This document shows, one piece after another, positions 1 to 57,022 of a DNA stretch of 64,000 nt. Made by a program: the position numbers and the translations under genes. The notes below the pieces were generated by a model that was given only the letters and a program-made list of their open reading frames with translations, ran no database searches and had not been told where the DNA came from. How positions within the stretch are numbered: position 1 is the stretch's first letter; every line of letters starts with the position of its first letter. The DNA is taken from positions 1-64,000 of the forward strand of contig JAPPFM010000053.1 in assembly GCA_028821605.1 (NCBI GenBank), given 5' to 3'. This stretch comes from Candidatus Poribacteria bacterium (lineage in GTDB: Bacteria > Poribacteria > WGA-4E > WGA-3G).

Positions 1-493
1 GGGCTTGCAAGCTGCGCCCTAAAGCCTTCGCGATTTCTACGAGTTGTTGTTGTCCAATGCCGAGTTCGTGGACGGGTTTATGGAGTGGAATTGTCAATCC
101 GAACTGCGAAAGGAGTTCGCCTGCTTCATGATAGAGGCGATGCCTGTCAATAGTCCCGAATTGACACGGTTCCTTGCCGAGATAGATGTTCTCTGCGACC
201 GTCATCTCTGGGATGAGTGCCAATTCCTGATGGATAATGGCGATCCCGGCGCGTTCTGCGTCGCGCACAGTATGGAATTGCTGTTCGTTCCCATTGATGT
301 ATAGTTGTCCTTCGTAGGTTCCGGACGGATAAACACCACCGAGAATCTTAATCAACGTTGATTTACCAGCACCGTTTTCTCCACACAGCGCATGGATTTC
401 ACCCGGACGCACCTCGAAAGAGACATTGTCTAAGGCGCGCACGCCGGGGAAGTCTTTGGTGATTGCTTGCATGTGGAGAAGTGGGATGGGCAT
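1..493 (-). CDS. Sugar ABC transporter ATP-binding protein (5' part, runs off window)
   Basis: Read on the minus strand from an ATG at 493, the frame stays open to the window edge (164 codons). Visible are a Walker A motif (GENGAGKS, about residues 38-45), a Q-loop region (IIHQEL), the AENIYLG segment and a signature-like LGIGQQQ. This is the N-terminal nucleotide-binding domain typical of the RbsA/XylG/MglA family, which has two fused ATPase domains and powers uptake of ribose, xylose or galactose-type sugars at the inner membrane. The second domain and the permease and binding-protein partners lie outside the window, so the substrate cannot be named. Confidence 0.9.
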   Translation of the reverse strand, partial: MPIPLLHMQAITKDFPGVRALDNVSFEVRPGEIHALCGENGAGKSTLIKILGGVYPSGTYEGQLYINGNEQQFHTVRDAERAGIAIIHQELALIPEMTVAENIYLGKEPCQFGTIDRHRLYHEAGELLSQFGLTIPLHKPVHELGIGQQQLVEIAKALGRSLQA

Positions 494-713
494 TGCTCGT
501 TGATACTCCAATACTCAGTTTTTAGTTATTATAGCAGCAGTGGTAATGTAAATCAAGTTTTTCGTAGGGCTGTTTATAGTGAATCATAAAAATGGATAGA
601 CATTTCTGTCGCATGCGTAATTTTGCTTGATAGATACGATGTAAAATGGTATCATACACTATGTATATCCTCATATAAAATGGACTGTTAATTAACGAAA
701 TAGCATTTTTTCT

Positions 714-48780: not shown

Positions 48781-48996
48781 TTATTTCAAAATAGCGACAG
48801 CAACAGAAATAATCATGGCTCCGGGGGCACATACAATCGTTATCCAGTTTCGCATTCCTGCAATCGTGTTTTGCTTACCTTTGCGTTCCGATATACCGTT
48901 CTCAACAGTGCGGAGCCGGGTATCCATCTCATCTAAACGCTGATTGACCTGATCAAAACTGTCTTTCATTAACTGGTAGAGTTCTTCATTTGTCAT
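48781..48996 (-). CDS. Small coiled-coil membrane protein (XhlA-like)
   Basis: 71 residues: an N-terminal charged coiled coil (NEELYQLMKDSFDQVNQRLD, then EMDTRLRTVENGI), a short basic turn and one C-terminal membrane segment (WITIVCAPGAMIISVAVAIL). AAAGGAACAG precedes the ATG. The architecture resembles XhlA-type hemolysin or holin-accessory proteins of phages, though such short sequences give weak evidence. It lies 80 bases downstream of the helicase-nuclease gene on the same strand and may belong to that module. Confidence 0.7.
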   Translation of the reverse strand: MTNEELYQLMKDSFDQVNQRLDEMDTRLRTVENGISERKGKQNTIAGMRNWITIVCAPGAMIISVAVAILK

Positions 48997-49076: not shown

Positions 49077-50798
49077 TTATTTTCTGTCATCTTCTTTTCT
49101 CAGTTTCCTTCTCGCTCGCCAATACCCAAACTGCCGGAGATAGTAATTAATATTTTTACGGATTCCCTCAAACTCTGGCACGAATGGACACTGTCCACCA
49201 AGCACAACAAGTTCCATCTTGGCACGCGTCATTGCAACATAGAAAACGCGCCGCTCCTCTGTAAGTATACTATCTCGACGGGGAAAGCGATGCGCCAATG
49301 TATTGTGGATAAGGATAACTTTTTCCCATTCTCTACCCTTCACTTTGTGGATCGTCGTTACCTCAGGTGAAGCTGGATGGTTGATAAGCATCTCCTGAAT
49401 CCGTTCTGTTTCGTCGTTGGTACGTGCGAGAATAGCGATTTCTTTCGGGAGTTCTAACTCGCGTAGTAAGGTGGTTTCTACGGTTTCTGGGGTTGTCTCT
49501 ACGATTTTTATGCGCTGCTGCATCGGATTACGTGCGCGGAGATTTTTGCGGATTCGCGGTTCGTTTCGCTCAATCAAAGCCCGTGCGTGTTCAACAATCG
49601 TTGACGTAGAACGGTAATTGCGTGTGATTTCATACTTTTTCACATTCTTCCGATCCGTAAATGCCTGCATAATCTCGGAGTTGCCACCACGAAAACTGTA
49701 GATTGCTTGGTCATCATCACCGACAGCGAAAAGGTTCTCTGATAAGAGCGAAATCAGCCGGAAGTCGGCAGGAGAGATGTCTTGGAATTCGTCAACAAGC
49801 AGATAGGGGTATTTGTCTCGGTAGGTTTGGTGGAGATCGGGATAGGTCTCAAGAAGGTTCGCTGCGTGGATAATCATATCCTCGAAATCGACGGCGTTTG
49901 CTGCAGTTTTGAGCGTCTCATATTTTATGGCAAATGCCTTTGCCACAGGATCGTCGAGTGTAGCTGGGTCGAACACACCTGTAACAACCTGCCGTTTCGC
50001 TCGCGTAACGGTCTCTTCTATGCCGCTGAAACGTTCGAGGAGATTCTCGAAGTCTGGATGTCTATCAAAATGTTTCTCGTAGGTGATGCTGAAATGCTGG
50101 CAGAATATTTCAAGGATGAGTTGGTTGCTGTACCGCACCCGTAACGGATCGGCACGGTTGAACACACTCGCTTGATCTCTATGGAACGCAATCCAGTACG
50201 CTTCGCAACGATTCGCCTCTCGTCCTGTGACCCGTTCAAGTACTTCAAAACGGAATTGTGTTTCTCCTTCAGATCGGATTGCTTGACGGAGTCTATCGTT
50301 TGAGGAGTGGTCGAAGTGTTCCTTACGCCGCCGATCTGGGTTTGTCGTCTGTCCGATATAGCATTTGCCGGTCTTTTTGCTCTCTATTTTATAGATGGCG
50401 ACCGAGGTAGTGGAGGCTTTGCGTTCAATCTGTCTCCGCTCGTTTGTGATGATCTGATCAATCTGTCCCGACCAGATTTCAGGAATATGGTTAAACGCTG
50501 CGCGTTTATAGTTTTCGGTGATAATGTCTTTACCGAAGGCGTGGAGTGTGCGGATGACAGGTTTTTGGGCGGTTTCGGATGCCGTGAGTTCCCGCAAGAT
50601 ACGTGTTTCCATCTCTTCAACGGCTTTTCTATTGAAGGCAATAGCGAGAATATGTGAGGGTGGGATGTTGTGGGTCTGGATAAGGTTTAGAATTCGTGCC
50701 GTTACGACTGTAGTTTTTCCACTACCGGGTCCTGCGATGACGATAGCGGGACCCGCAACATGGTTAGCGGCTTTTTCCTGATTTCTATCGAGTCTCAT
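49077..50798 (-). CDS. UvrD/PcrA-like SF1 helicase with an inserted GIY-YIG nuclease domain
   Basis: 573 residues. Helicase motifs in order: Walker A GPGSGKTT (23-30), AFNRKAVEEM (Ia), TLHAFG (Ic), LLVDEFQD (II, 333-340), VGDDDQAIYSFRGG (III), TRNYRST (IV), TTIHKVKGREW (V) and RRVFYVAMTRAK (VI). Between Ic and II, where domain 1B normally sits, residues about 133-216 form a GIY-YIG domain: AIY, CYIGQTTNPDRRRKEH with the catalytic Arg, and CEAYWI with the metal-binding Glu. Domain 2B is short. It should translocate on DNA and cut it. HNH and RHH-like genes precede it. No clear ribosome site; ATG at 50798 is the only good start. Confidence 0.92.
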   Translation of the reverse strand: MRLDRNQEKAANHVAGPAIVIAGPGSGKTTVVTARILNLIQTHNIPPSHILAIAFNRKAVEEMETRILRELTASETAQKPVIRTLHAFGKDIITENYKRAAFNHIPEIWSGQIDQIITNERRQIERKASTTSVAIYKIESKKTGKCYIGQTTNPDRRRKEHFDHSSNDRLRQAIRSEGETQFRFEVLERVTGREANRCEAYWIAFHRDQASVFNRADPLRVRYSNQLILEIFCQHFSITYEKHFDRHPDFENLLERFSGIEETVTRAKRQVVTGVFDPATLDDPVAKAFAIKYETLKTAANAVDFEDMIIHAANLLETYPDLHQTYRDKYPYLLVDEFQDISPADFRLISLLSENLFAVGDDDQAIYSFRGGNSEIMQAFTDRKNVKKYEITRNYRSTSTIVEHARALIERNEPRIRKNLRARNPMQQRIKIVETTPETVETTLLRELELPKEIAILARTNDETERIQEMLINHPASPEVTTIHKVKGREWEKVILIHNTLAHRFPRRDSILTEERRVFYVAMTRAKMELVVLGGQCPFVPEFEGIRKNINYYLRQFGYWRARRKLRKEDDRK

Positions 50799-51930: not shown

Positions 51931-52365
51931 TCACTTCGGCATCCGCCGCACCCATAATAGCAGTGCTACGTTCATCGCGCCGATAAAACCGAAAACATAA
52001 GATTGGATACCTGCTAATGTATCAAGTGAGCGGGTGAGGAATGGACAGAGAATCGGTAAACCGAGCGCAACACAGGTATAAAAGGTGAGAAGTTTCGCAC
52101 CTTTCGCTTCCCAGAAGATTATCTGCCGTTTTAAAACCTTTAAATATGACTGCTGCCATAACCGAGATGTCCACTTCCCTTGCATAAACCCTAAAGCGAT
52201 GCCTAAGCCGTAGCCGAAACTTGACCATCGGAGATCGATGCGCACGTCTTGGGAGAGGGTAACCACCCAGAGCAGCTGCCCCAGCACTGAAACCACTATA
52301 AACGCCCAAAAGACAGGCAGTTTCATATAGAATGGAAGGAGGCGACGCGTTAATTTATCCAGCAT
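51931..52365 (-). CDS. Small polytopic membrane protein of unknown function
   Basis: 144 residues with about four hydrophobic segments (LPVFWAFIVVSVLGQLLWVV, FGYGLGIALGFMQ, LLTFYTCVALGLPILCPFL, YVFGFIGAMNVALLLWV) and basic loops. I do not recognise a family. It lies between the purQ gene and the nuclease module on the same strand, with weak ribosome site and no clear link to either. Confidence 0.6.
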   Translation of the reverse strand: MLDKLTRRLLPFYMKLPVFWAFIVVSVLGQLLWVVTLSQDVRIDLRWSSFGYGLGIALGFMQGKWTSRLWQQSYLKVLKRQIIFWEAKGAKLLTFYTCVALGLPILCPFLTRSLDTLAGIQSYVFGFIGAMNVALLLWVRRMPK

Positions 52366-52418
52366 TTTTTATGAGCGTTTTAGAACACAGTGCCTTTATG
52401 ATGTACAGAGTCTACCTG

Positions 52419-53204
52419 TTAAAGATTTGCTTTGACGTAATTAACAGCGTTTTTGAAGATAACCAATCCGTCGCCCTCTTCGGAAAGGGAGTCTTCTGTT
52501 TCTGAAAGCCGGGTCCAGCGCGGGTGATTCCATTTTGTCAGGAACCTTTCTGGATGGGGCATCAAACCGAAGATTCTTCCTGTTGTATCGCATATACCAG
52601 CGATGTCGGCATCGGAACCGTTCGGATTGTTTGGGTATCTGCTTTCGGCATATCGAAACACAACCTGATTGTTTGCTTCCACTTCTGACAGCACATCTTC
52701 GGGAGCAGTAAATCGACCCTCAGCGTGCGCGACGGGGAGATAGACACGAGCTTTGGTGTTTCTTGTAAAGACGCACGGACTTTCCTGCGTTTCCAAATCT
52801 ACCCACCGACACTCGAATTTTGCCGAGGTGTTCATTGCTAACGTCGCGCGTTGTGTCATTTCTAAGGTGTCGTTCCCGGGCAATAAGCCTGTCCGGACGA
52901 GGACTTGGAATCCATTGCATATACCGAGTATCAGTTTACCGTCAGCGACAAACCGGTTGAGCGCGTTTGTCAGTTTGTGTCTCATCTCAATCGCCAGTAA
53001 AATACCGGCAGCAATATCATCACCGTAGGAGAAGCCACCGGGGATAGCGAGGATCTGATAGTCCGCCAGGTTGACTTTGCCGGATATGAGGTGTTGGATG
53101 TGGACTAACGCTGTCTCCGCCCCGGCGAATTGGAATGCTGTGTCTGTTTCTGCATCGCAGTTAGTTCCTGCGGTTCGTAAGATGAGTACGTTTGGCTTAG
53201 TCAT
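52419..53204 (-). CDS. purQ: Phosphoribosylformylglycinamidine synthase, glutaminase subunit
   Basis: 261 residues of the class I glutamine amidotransferase fold: IPGGFSYGDDIAAG, the nucleophile Cys in LGICNGFQVLVRTGLLPG, and the His-Glu pair in LMPHPERFL. PurQ supplies ammonia to PurL for FGAM formation in purine synthesis. It follows purL on the same transcript, 39 bases downstream. GAGGAT precedes the ATG. Confidence 0.95.
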   Translation of the reverse strand: MTKPNVLILRTAGTNCDAETDTAFQFAGAETALVHIQHLISGKVNLADYQILAIPGGFSYGDDIAAGILLAIEMRHKLTNALNRFVADGKLILGICNGFQVLVRTGLLPGNDTLEMTQRATLAMNTSAKFECRWVDLETQESPCVFTRNTKARVYLPVAHAEGRFTAPEDVLSEVEANNQVVFRYAESRYPNNPNGSDADIAGICDTTGRIFGLMPHPERFLTKWNHPRWTRLSETEDSLSEEGDGLVIFKNAVNYVKANL

Positions 53205-53243
53205 TTTATCCTCTATAAGTTTAACACCTGTCTGGCTTAAAAG

Positions 53244-55640
53244 TTACGAATGCAATGGTGTTTGCCACGCAGATTTGAGAATATCAACCGAGGTTTCAAT
53301 AATTGGATTTCCTGCCCTTCCCTTAATGGCGAATTCCAGTGTGTCTGTAACGGTACCGAGACAACCTATCGGTATTTCCGCCATGTGCTTTTCGTAAGCC
53401 TTGCGGTGTTGTGGTTCAATCTCTACAAGAAAACGACTGTTTGACTCCGAGAACAGAAGATAGTCGTCAGCGGTAATCTCATCACCTGTGGGGACATCGT
53501 TGAGATTTAGGGACATTCCGTATCCACCTGAAAACGCCATCTCCGCCGCTGCGACACCGATACCGCCTTCGGAACAGTCATGGCAAGAACGCACCAATCC
53601 GTTATTGATAGCACTGCTGAGGCGTTCCATCGTTAATTTACCTTCATTGGGACGGATGGCAGGTGCGTTGTTTCCGATGAATCCGTGGATACCGAAGTAG
53701 TGCGATCCCCCCAATTCGGCGTAAGTGTTGCCGACGACATAGATGAAATTGCCGGGCGTTTTTACATCCATTGTGACAGCACGCTGAATGTCAGGTATAA
53801 CGCAGATGGCGGAGATAAGCAGTGTTGATGGAATCGCGCGTTGTTCACCTGTTGTGGTGTCGCGGTATTCGTTGTAGAGGCTGTCTTTACCAGAGATAAA
53901 GGGAGTACCATAAGCCGTTGCGATGTCATAGCACGCTTTCGCTGCACGGACTAATTCACCGAGTCGATCGGGTTTATCTGGATTTCCCCAACAGAAGTTA
54001 TCTAACAGTGCTGTTTTTTCTAACGTTCCACCGACAGCAATTATGTTCCGCAGTGCCTCATCGATCGCTGCCGCTGCACTGAGATACGGATCTACGTCGC
54101 TATATTTCGGGTTGATACCGTTCGCGACGATTACGCCCATTCGGCTTCCAATAACAGGGGTAACAACGCATGCATCGCTGGGTCCGTCGTTTTCTGCGCC
54201 GACAAGCGGATTGATCACTATACCACCTTGGACACCATGGTCGTATTGCCGGATGACGGATTCTTTGCTTGCAATGTTTGGACTTGCGAGAAGTCGTTTG
54301 AGATCTTCAGTGTAGTTTTCCGTTTCTTCATCTCGTGATGCCATGTCTGGGTGCTTCGGTAGGGACCAAACTGCCTGCTTGACGGGTTTCGGTAAGCCAT
54401 TGTGCAGAAATTCCATCTCTAAATCAGCGACTATTGCACCTTCATAGAACACTTGTAACCGATGTGTGTCTGTGAAATTTCCGAGGACCGTGGCTTCAAC
54501 GACTTCCGCTTCGCATATCTCCATGAGTTCGTCTATATTTTCAGCCGGGACAGCGATGACCATACGTTCTTGTGCTTCGGATAGCCAGATTTCCCAGGGG
54601 GCGAGTCCTTCATATTTCAGGGAGACCCGTTCCAAATGCACTTCTGCGCCTATATGTTCTCCCATCTCACCCACAGCAGAGGAAAACCCTCCCGCGCCAC
54701 AATCAGTTATGGAGCGATACAGGTTACGATCGCGTGCTTGTAACAGGGCATCGACAATCTTCTTCTCCGTAATTGGATTGCCGATCTGTACGACGCTGCC
54801 AAGATTTTCAGATGTATCGTCGAGTTCTGCGGAGGAGAAGGTGGCACCGTGGATTCCGTCGCGGCCTGTTTGTCCGCCGATTGCGACGACGAGATCACCG
54901 GGTTCAACGGATTTATCGCATCTGTTTCTCGGTATTAAGCCGACATTTCCACAGAAAACAAGTGGGTTTGCAGTATAGCGGGTATCAAAGAGGATAGTAC
55001 CGTTGGCTGTCGGAATGCCCATCCGGTTGCCGTAATCACGCACGCCAGCGACGACCCCTTTAAAGACGCGTTTCGGATGAAGCGTACCTTTCGGCAGCTG
55101 CGCGTAAGGCGTATCCGGCATCCCGAAACAGAAGACATCTGTATTCAGAATCGGTTTTGCACCAAGTCCCGTGCCGAGTGAGTCACGGATGACACCACCG
55201 ATACCAGTACCGGCACCACCGTAGGGTTCAATCGCTGAGGGATGATTGTGTGTCTCCACTTTGAAGACGAGGTTGAATGTATCATCGAATTCGATGATAC
55301 CGGCGTTGTCCGAAAAGACAGAGACACACCACGGTTTTGCTATTTCCTCGGTTGCCCGTTGGATGTAGGTTGGAAACAAACCGTCAATTTGTTCCGGTTC
55401 TTGCTCCCCTTCGGAATAGAGGATGATGCTCTTAAACGTTTTGTGAACGCAATGCTCGGACCACGTTTGGGCGATGGTCTCTATTTCTACATCGGTTGGG
55501 TTGCGTCCTAACGTTCCGAAATGTGTCTGGATCGCCTTCATCTCGTTCAAGTTCAGGGACAGCGTTCCTTCTCGACTGATACGCATCAGTTCAGCATCAT
55601 CTGCGTTTAGAATGTTTATTTCGTTAACCGTATTGGACAT
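53244..55640 (-). CDS. purL: Phosphoribosylformylglycinamidine synthase, synthetase subunit
   Basis: The ATG at 55640 is preferred to the GTG one codon earlier, since GGAGGAA lies 5 bases before the ATG. 798 residues, in the range of small PurL proteins. Signatures: TWSEHCVHKTFKS, VFKVETHNHPSAIEPYGGAG with the catalytic His, GGQTGRDGIHGATFSSAEL, and DGGEGG-type DCSEGGIGVAAAEMAFSGG. It ligates ammonia to FGAR with ATP, in complex with PurQ and normally PurS. No purS is visible next to it. Confidence 0.95.
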   Translation of the reverse strand: MSNTVNEINILNADDAELMRISREGTLSLNLNEMKAIQTHFGTLGRNPTDVEIETIAQTWSEHCVHKTFKSIILYSEGEQEPEQIDGLFPTYIQRATEEIAKPWCVSVFSDNAGIIEFDDTFNLVFKVETHNHPSAIEPYGGAGTGIGGVIRDSLGTGLGAKPILNTDVFCFGMPDTPYAQLPKGTLHPKRVFKGVVAGVRDYGNRMGIPTANGTILFDTRYTANPLVFCGNVGLIPRNRCDKSVEPGDLVVAIGGQTGRDGIHGATFSSAELDDTSENLGSVVQIGNPITEKKIVDALLQARDRNLYRSITDCGAGGFSSAVGEMGEHIGAEVHLERVSLKYEGLAPWEIWLSEAQERMVIAVPAENIDELMEICEAEVVEATVLGNFTDTHRLQVFYEGAIVADLEMEFLHNGLPKPVKQAVWSLPKHPDMASRDEETENYTEDLKRLLASPNIASKESVIRQYDHGVQGGIVINPLVGAENDGPSDACVVTPVIGSRMGVIVANGINPKYSDVDPYLSAAAAIDEALRNIIAVGGTLEKTALLDNFCWGNPDKPDRLGELVRAAKACYDIATAYGTPFISGKDSLYNEYRDTTTGEQRAIPSTLLISAICVIPDIQRAVTMDVKTPGNFIYVVGNTYAELGGSHYFGIHGFIGNNAPAIRPNEGKLTMERLSSAINNGLVRSCHDCSEGGIGVAAAEMAFSGGYGMSLNLNDVPTGDEITADDYLLFSESNSRFLVEIEPQHRKAYEKHMAEIPIGCLGTVTDTLEFAIKGRAGNPIIETSVDILKSAWQTPLHS

Positions 55641-55784
55641 CACTTCCTCCGCAATTTACGCGTCGTCTTCTTGAAGAGATTTTGCTGCAAATATCGTCAA
55701 GCATAATTCTTCGTTAAAGCGTTCATAGACAGGTGTTTTCCCACTCAAAGGTGGCAACTTGGATTATTATGTCCCAATCTTGGT

Positions 55785-56183
55785 TTAGACAGCGGCCCGA
55801 ATTTCCGATAGCACTACACCTTTGAAATCTCTGAAAATATCACGGAGTCTTATCGCTATATCGCTAATTGTTCCTTCAGCACCAAGACTAAGCATCGTCA
55901 TTTTTTCAGCTTCTGTATGGGCGGTTCTGTAGTAAATACAATATGTGAAACGATAAGAACGGAACCACTTGTCTACATCCTGCACTGGAATTTCCCCTTT
56001 GAATCCTAAAACTACCATTTTAACCATATTTTTACCCAACGGAGGTTGTAAGTGAGTTAATAGCAATTCCTCGTAAAGAACCCAGTTAATTTCTACCAAT
56101 GACCAGTCTATAGAAAAATCTTTTGCTTCTTCTTTTAGAATTTGTTCAAATTTTTTGTCGACAACAATATTTGTAGTTTCCAT
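55785..56183 (-). CDS. Hypothetical protein partnered with DUF2971
   Basis: 132 residues, unrecognised. Mixed alpha/beta with no signal or membrane segment: DWSLVEINWVLYEELLLTHL, MVKMVVLGFKGEIPVQDVDKW, and a closing amphipathic stretch TISDIAIRLRDIFRDFKG. It starts on the last base of the upstream DUF2971 gene (stop and start overlap), so the two are translationally coupled. Both are notably AT-rich and Lys-rich relative to the flanking purL and TIM-barrel genes, suggesting joint acquisition. Confidence 0.65.
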   Translation of the reverse strand: METTNIVVDKKFEQILKEEAKDFSIDWSLVEINWVLYEELLLTHLQPPLGKNMVKMVVLGFKGEIPVQDVDKWFRSYRFTYCIYYRTAHTEAEKMTMLSLGAEGTISDIAIRLRDIFRDFKGVVLSEIRAAV

Positions 56184-57022
56184 TATAAACCTCCATCATT
56201 GGTAAGTTCGTCTGAAGTAGGGTCGTCTAAAAGTGTTGATGGACTAACCTGAAAATTAAATCCGAATTTCTGAACTACTGATCTGAGAGTTTCCGTAATC
56301 CAATCCTTCGCGTAGGGTGAGACAATGACTTCATCAATCAACGTACTTACATCAATATTGAAAAGCATACCGATGTCGCATATATCCGGTAATCCAGTCT
56401 CTAAAAAAGAATCTACATTTTCTACAGTCTGATTATTAAGAGCATCCCTAACGAAAGGATCAATATCAACAATTAACCGAACTTCCTGTTCATGTTCGTA
56501 TTCTTTTCTTTTTTGAAAATAAGGAAAATATGTCAATTTTTTAGCCAATGGGATATCGTTTTGTAGAAAGTTTTGCATATATTGGTCGTCATCCGTGTTA
56601 CCGTGGATATACTCTATTTTACCGATATAAATAGAATATTCACTTAACAAGCTATTTTTCATTTTTTCCATGGTTGTTTTGATAGCAACACCACTATTGC
56701 GCATATGATATTTTTCCCACATTGCCATTGACTCTACTACATTCCGATGCCAACAGTTACACATAACATATTTACGTGAAGCTTCATGCCGCTTCATAAT
56801 TGCTTTGACAAACTCTGCTGGGGTGACACGCTTGAGGGATTGCTTGTAAGCATCTATAATACTTTGCGGTATAAATCCTTCGTATGGATCCTCGAATTTA
56901 TCAGCTCTTGTAAAATACAAAGCTTGTGTATCTAACAGATTAACGAATACCTCAAAGTTCGTGTATCGCCACAAAATATCTTTATCGTTTGGAGGGTTAA
57001 TTCCGTCTAATTCTTCATACAT
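56183..57022 (-). CDS. DUF2971 family protein
   Basis: 279 residues with the DUF2971 hallmarks: LWRYTNFEVFVNLLDTQALY near the start, FTRADKFEDPYEGF, CNCWHRNVVESMAMWEKYH and HEQEVRLIVD. It is a cytosolic protein of unknown activity that is frequently found in phage-defence neighbourhoods and mobile regions. Coupled to the 132-residue partner gene at 55785. AT-rich composition sets the pair apart from its neighbours. Confidence 0.85.
   Translation of the reverse strand: MYEELDGINPPNDKDILWRYTNFEVFVNLLDTQALYFTRADKFEDPYEGFIPQSIIDAYKQSLKRVTPAEFVKAIMKRHEASRKYVMCNCWHRNVVESMAMWEKYHMRNSGVAIKTTMEKMKNSLLSEYSIYIGKIEYIHGNTDDDQYMQNFLQNDIPLAKKLTYFPYFQKRKEYEHEQEVRLIVDIDPFVRDALNNQTVENVDSFLETGLPDICDIGMLFNIDVSTLIDEVIVSPYAKDWITETLRSVVQKFGFNFQVSPSTLLDDPTSDELTNDGGL

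Follow-up and report, generated by a model that had tools for sequence, protein, structure and literature searches.

A GIY-YIG nuclease domain within subdomain 1B of a UvrD-type helicase lacking subdomain 2B in a family of Candidatus Poribacteria

Can a single protein chain unwind DNA and cut it at the same point? This question is raised by an open reading frame in a 64,000-nt stretch of DNA (the window) from Candidatus Poribacteria, in which a UvrD/PcrA/Rep-type SF1A helicase encloses a GIY-YIG nuclease and subdomain 2B is absent (Table 1). The family of Poribacteria that carries the gene consists of uncultured, mostly sponge-associated bacteria. The architecture seen in structural models suggests that one chain may indeed perform both activities.

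The evidence for a helicase motor is extensive. Pfam assigns residues 4-383 to UvrD-helicase (5e-59), a span that encloses the insert, and residues 479-532 to UvrD_C (5e-20), while the complete set of SF1A motifs (Q, I, Ia, Ib, II, III, IV, V and VI) is present in the 573-residue protein, with motifs I to VI lying within a 1A/2A core as in other SF1A UvrD/Rep/PcrA helicases. An AlphaFold model from a 56-sequence alignment has a mean pLDDT of 91.5 and a pTM of 0.86, with every residue at 50 or above, and the top solved-structure matches of the whole chain in Foldseek are UvrD, PcrA and Rep. The protein shares with these enzymes all motifs, the 1A/2A fold and part of 1B, but differs in having no 2B and approximately 120 extra 1B residues that form the nuclease. 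Moreover, it lacks full-length similarity to the curated PcrA, Rep and UvrD families, scoring about 200 bits against cut-offs of at least 911.

Table 1. Features of the helicase-nuclease gene and its surroundings (residues of the protein; positions in the window).
Feature	Residues	Position	Strand	Basis or remark
Helicase-nuclease open reading frame, 573 aa		49077..50798	-	ATG start, no internal stop; Pfam, structure model, Foldseek
1A N-terminal half and start of 1B	1-117	50448..50798	-	
Motif Q	3			
Walker A, AGPGSGKT	22-29	50712-50735	-	
Motif Ia	51			
Motif Ib, TLHAFG	84-89	50532-50549	-	
GIY-YIG nuclease domain	132-216	50151..50405	-	Pfam, PHROG, I-TevI structure match, invariant residues
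C-terminal part of insert	217-249	50052..50150	-	About 30 residues beyond UvrD relatives
Remainder of 1B and second 1A half	250-383	49650..50051	-	
Motif II, VDEFQD	335-340	49779-49796	-	
Motif III, VGDDDQAIYSFRGG	359-372	49683-49724	-	
Domain 2A, motifs IV-VI	384-540	49179..49649	-	
Motif IV, NYRST	within 391-398			
Motif V, TTIHKVKGREW	481-491			
Motif VI, VAMTRAK	within 519-527			
71-aa protein		48784-48996	-	Directly downstream
HNH nuclease gene, 144 aa		50859..51293	-	60 bp upstream of helicase; Pfam HNH, 2.6e-12
Conserved upstream context: 144-aa protein, purQ, purL		51931..55643	-	Synteny
AT-rich patch, two genes		55785-57022	-	Between purL and a 273-aa gene

Several independent comparisons identify the insert. 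A Pfam GIY-YIG match lies inside UvrD-helicase (residues 134-207, 7.8e-9 with the full protein and 5.3e-10 with the domain alone), and the same match was obtained for 28 of 28 diverse orthologs. Phage homing-endonuclease families of PHROG match the insert at 1.8e-17, and a profile alignment with the I-TevI catalytic domain (2.7e-5) spans that whole domain. Foldseek aligned the insert with I-TevI (1ln0; TM 0.80, rmsd 2.4), the closest among the matches listed, using an earlier, shallower AlphaFold model that was made from near-identical orthologs only and had a pLDDT of 61 overall, with its highest confidence in the GIY part. Residues Y136, Y147, R157, H161, E199 and N214 are essentially invariant among 59 aligned sequences, paralogs included, the exception being one row that is gapped at E199 and N214. 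The five signature residues of the fold (Tyr, Tyr, Arg, Glu and Asn) are thus among those retained, and the insert is a genuine GIY-YIG domain with an apparently intact active site. A preliminary description of this DNA, made from the letters alone, had reported intact SF1 motifs around a complete, internally embedded GIY-YIG domain; Pfam, the motif positions, profiles, structure prediction of the 573-residue chain and the conservation of Arg, Glu and Tyr in homologues all bear this out. Beyond the nuclease itself, the C-terminal part of the insert forms a helix at residues 225-235 (YSNQLILEIFCQHF) in the structure model, has a dN/dS of 0.06, and accounts for the excess over UvrD relatives that lies between the GIY columns and the remaining 1B.

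Alignment with PcrA locates both the insertion and the missing subdomain. Query residues 2-110 correspond to PcrA 11-115 and residues 283-483 to PcrA 168-381, so that PcrA 116-167, a stretch of 52 residues inside subdomain 1B, is matched by 172 residues in the query (111-282), an excess of 120. Hence, the nuclease has been inserted into 1B rather than in place of it, with 1B sequence retained on either side and a helix (residues 112-130) continuing directly into the first GIY strand in the structure model. The insertion is clean, since UvrD relatives from viral contigs align across both flanks but leave the GIY columns empty, apart from four residues in one case. The nuclease had previously been placed at the 1B position, which agrees with structure, profiles and alignments as to the region, but 1B itself has not been replaced.

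Subdomain 2B comprises about 175 residues in PcrA and is normally inserted between motifs IV and V. PcrA 382-556, which constitutes 2B, has no counterpart in the query, and the stretch between motifs IV and V (residues 399-480) is 82 residues long as compared to 179-269 in relatives. The comparison with viral UvrD proteins agrees with that with PcrA on both the 1B excess and the missing 2B, leaving the four-subdomain layout 1A-1B-2A-2B without its last member. The preliminary description had made no mention of this absence, which is important given that 2B exerts autoinhibition in Rep and UvrD (PMC13238157, PMC6158625).

Among the 85 Poribacteria genomes searched, 59 belong to the family of the window and 26 lie outside it. 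The gene is present in 55 of the 59, of which 54 were found by the search and one (G068) was counted because the first 55 residues of the gene lie at a contig end, and it is absent from all 26 genomes outside the family. Close relatives at 47 loci are all from Candidatus Poribacteria, in a scan that relies on exact short peptides and could let distant relatives elsewhere escape. The gene is usually single-copy; one genome (RHO2_bin_17, G080) has two equally scoring copies on different contigs (L180 and L181), probably a bin or assembly duplication. The host genomes are metagenome-assembled, and a chimeric contig or annotation error could in principle have created the fusion, but the identical architecture recurs across projects in more than 50 assemblies, single-contig genomes included, which refutes such an artefact and leaves it a negligible probability.

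The four exceptions are informative to different degrees. In G021, a single-contig genome of 5.06 Mb, no match was found genome-wide, and purL-purQ and the adjoining 144-aa gene are intact with the helicase missing beside them. The gene is therefore dispensable, being absent both from this locus and from elsewhere in a near-complete genome. G034 (83% complete) likewise has the purL-purQ locus without the helicase, and the gene was not detected in the incomplete genomes G003 (81% complete) and G014 (78% complete). The host also encodes an ordinary UvrC and other UvrD-type helicases, and thus the 573-aa protein is an additional enzyme. Its use as a substitute for UvrC in nucleotide excision repair was ruled out, since UvrC is present where the gene is present; the UvrC RNase H domain occurs in 79 of 83 Poribacteria genomes, G000 included.

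Because the nuclease is of the phage homing-endonuclease type, a selfish domain might have invaded the helicase gene in frame and persisted there without functional coupling. There is a precedent in HsdR, where Dunin-Horkawicz et al. described an inserted GIY-YIG domain and an 80%-identical homolog that is insert-free, and suggested mobility rather than function (PMC1564403). However, no insert-free ortholog was found at any recovered family locus, and a search of the rest of the host genome at E<=0.001 turned up no second copy of the GIY domain. The GIY domain has a median dN/dS of 0.10 and the motor one of 0.06-0.10, figures that are approximate because dS is near 1, and selection on the insert is thus as strong as on the motor. 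I-TevI-type homing endonucleases are the closest relatives of the insert by both sequence and structure, sharing the fold, the catalytic Tyr, Tyr, Arg and Glu, and the C-terminal Asn. In contrast to these mobile enzymes, the query has no NUMOD (Pfam) or other targeting domain, is embedded in a motor, appears to be vertically inherited, and is associated with no intron, intein or empty site; the C-terminal DNA-binding modules usual in homing endonucleases are also absent from the protein. Absent empty alleles and strong selection disfavor a recent selfish insertion, and we regard a selfish insert that persists uncoupled from the motor as distinctly improbable. Descent of the entire protein from a phage or plasmid was also rejected, as no match in 72,556 plasmid and 50,697 phage records extends over 80% of its length; among 45 GIY-YIG open reading frames from viral contigs, none carries helicase sequence. 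The architecture is stable and under selection and is not a recent invasion, as is evident from retention in 55 of 59 genomes, the mostly stable locus, the essentially invariant residues and a dN/dS of about 0.1 in both parts.

Combinations of GIY-YIG domains with nucleic-acid motors are rare but already known. The HsdR of Methylococcus (MCA0838) carries its GIY-YIG domain as an insert and Tlr8p of Tetrahymena as a fusion to an SF1 helicase, which likens both to the present protein; HsdR differs in belonging to SF2, having its own PD-(D/E)XK nuclease and possessing an insert-free homolog, and Tlr8p in that its GIY-YIG domain is C-terminal rather than internal (PMC1564403). Searches of the open-access literature found only these precedents and no report of a GIY-YIG domain either within UvrD 1B or in a UvrD that lacks 2B, and the 1B-embedded version in a 2B-less UvrD appears, judging from these searches, to be new.

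The gene resides in a recurring neighborhood: of 48 loci, 32 have purQ upstream and 30 have purL. The neighbors comprise the HNH protein, a weak ribbon-helix-helix match, a 144-aa protein without a confident domain, purQ, purL and DUF6785. The HNH gene is interposed in 11 of the 48 loci and is an accessory neighbor outside the core finding. Its product matches PtuB models of Septu (2.7e-11), and PtuA was not found; G021 has a possible HNH remnant of 45 residues with 69% identity. The 71-aa protein on the other side of the helicase apparently has a coiled coil and one transmembrane segment, and about 20 of the 48 loci have a homolog of it in the downstream position. Farther upstream, the AT-rich patch (GC 0.35 versus approximately 0.48) encodes a 132-aa protein without a Pfam match and a DUF2971 protein similar to the PADLOC candidate defence family PDC-S31 (3e-25). 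This patch is probably a recent insertion, because purL directly follows the 273-aa gene in G021.

A tandem paralog comes after the gene in roughly a dozen genomes of the family (L021:8394-10820, L022:2930-6670, L023:2550-5165, L024:2893-6837, L025:1544-5431, L290:4111-9204, L291:4738-8196, L292:5094-9386, L293:4045-8076 and L294:6304-9681). The open frames that were read whole range from 809 to 1698 aa, and in most paralogs the GIY-YIG insert is duplicated, with the first copy retaining Tyr, Tyr, Arg, His and Glu and the second lacking the catalytic Arg. Many end in a GrpE domain and S1 repeats. The single GrpE domain examined shares 42-44% identity with host GrpEs, and the S1 part is about 67% identical to a host protein that is probably ribosomal protein S1. 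Loss of the catalytic Arg from second copies implies that non-catalytic use of the fold occurs in this protein family, and the domain in the 573-aa protein might likewise serve only to bind DNA or to regulate the motor. This is very unlikely, however, given that the single copy in all orthologs retains every signature residue.

The paralogs also bear on an anti-phage or anti-plasmid role, in which the motor would find tailed or replicating foreign DNA for the GIY-YIG domain to cut. That they have duplicated the insert and acquired GrpE and S1 domains resembling those of the host is a pattern suggestive of conflict; the loss of the gene in G021 and the HNH gene upstream in a minority of loci also speak for a defensive role. 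GIY-YIG domains are found in the reported defence proteins PD-T4-3 and PD-lambda-1 (PMC10952713), and the top PADLOC matches of the protein are GajB models (3.9e-63), although the generic UvrD core accounts for most of that score. GajB resembles the query in being a compact UvrD-like helicase, but it has no GIY-YIG domain and is partnered with GajA (OLD/TOPRIM), whereas neither GajA nor any other conserved partner adjoins the poribacterial gene. Retention in nearly all family genomes, usually as one copy and often beside purLQ, is not island-like, and phages and plasmids lack homologs that reach 80% coverage. The likeness to defence helicase-nucleases proposed in the preliminary description is thus unsupported by context. 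Defence is nevertheless the main alternative to a role in DNA processing; it is possible, but we consider it unlikely. Quite unlikely is a more elaborate proposal, in which the 2B-less proteins are a Poribacteria-specific class whose GIY-YIG nickase occupies the duplex-facing position and turns the motor into a processive unwinding nickase, and the paralogs, with their duplicated and partly degenerate inserts and their GrpE and S1 domains, a diversifying conflict branch that carries integrated decoys of host factors exploited by phages.

On balance, the protein is probably a chromosomal, vertically inherited SF1A motor-nuclease, predicted to act as an ATP-driven 3'-5' translocase-nickase at junctions of single- and double-stranded DNA. 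AddA, RecB, AdnAB and other SF1A helicase-nucleases similarly combine motor and nuclease in one chain that acts at DNA ends or junctions. These proteins are among the structural matches (Foldseek), but theirs is a C-terminal PD-(D/E)XK nuclease, whereas the query has its GIY-YIG domain inside 1B and no 2B. The 1A/2A core would be expected to move along single-stranded DNA in the 3'-5' direction, powered by ATP. In structures of PcrA and UvrD, 1B faces duplex DNA, and for this reason a GIY-YIG domain rooted in 1B would be expected to nick at or near the junction. Forked, flapped or tailed DNA would then be cut in an ATP-dependent manner. That unwinding and cutting are coupled, as previously proposed, is a reasonable reading, and the equal purifying selection on both parts strengthens it.

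The absence of 2B may shape what this motor can do. Deletion of the autoinhibitory 2B turns the Rep monomer into an active helicase (PMC13238157, PMC6158625), and by this reasoning the poribacterial protein would be expected to unwind as a monomer. Alternatively, loss of 2B could mean a weak motor. Rep without 2B also loses protein displacement and its accessory-helicase function (PMC6158625), which disfavors a role as a replication accessory and better fits one in processing. More tentatively, the enzyme may contribute to genome maintenance in an accessory, non-essential way by processing DNA that is branched or damaged.

If active, this protein would be a natural counterpart to the removal of 2B from Rep, with a nuclease added where 1B faces the duplex. 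It would then offer a compact nickase driven by ATP as well as a direct test of the functions that 1B and 2B have in SF1A helicases. Its stable, lineage-wide architecture joins the few known cases of a GIY-YIG domain in a motor, in bacteria that are not yet culturable.
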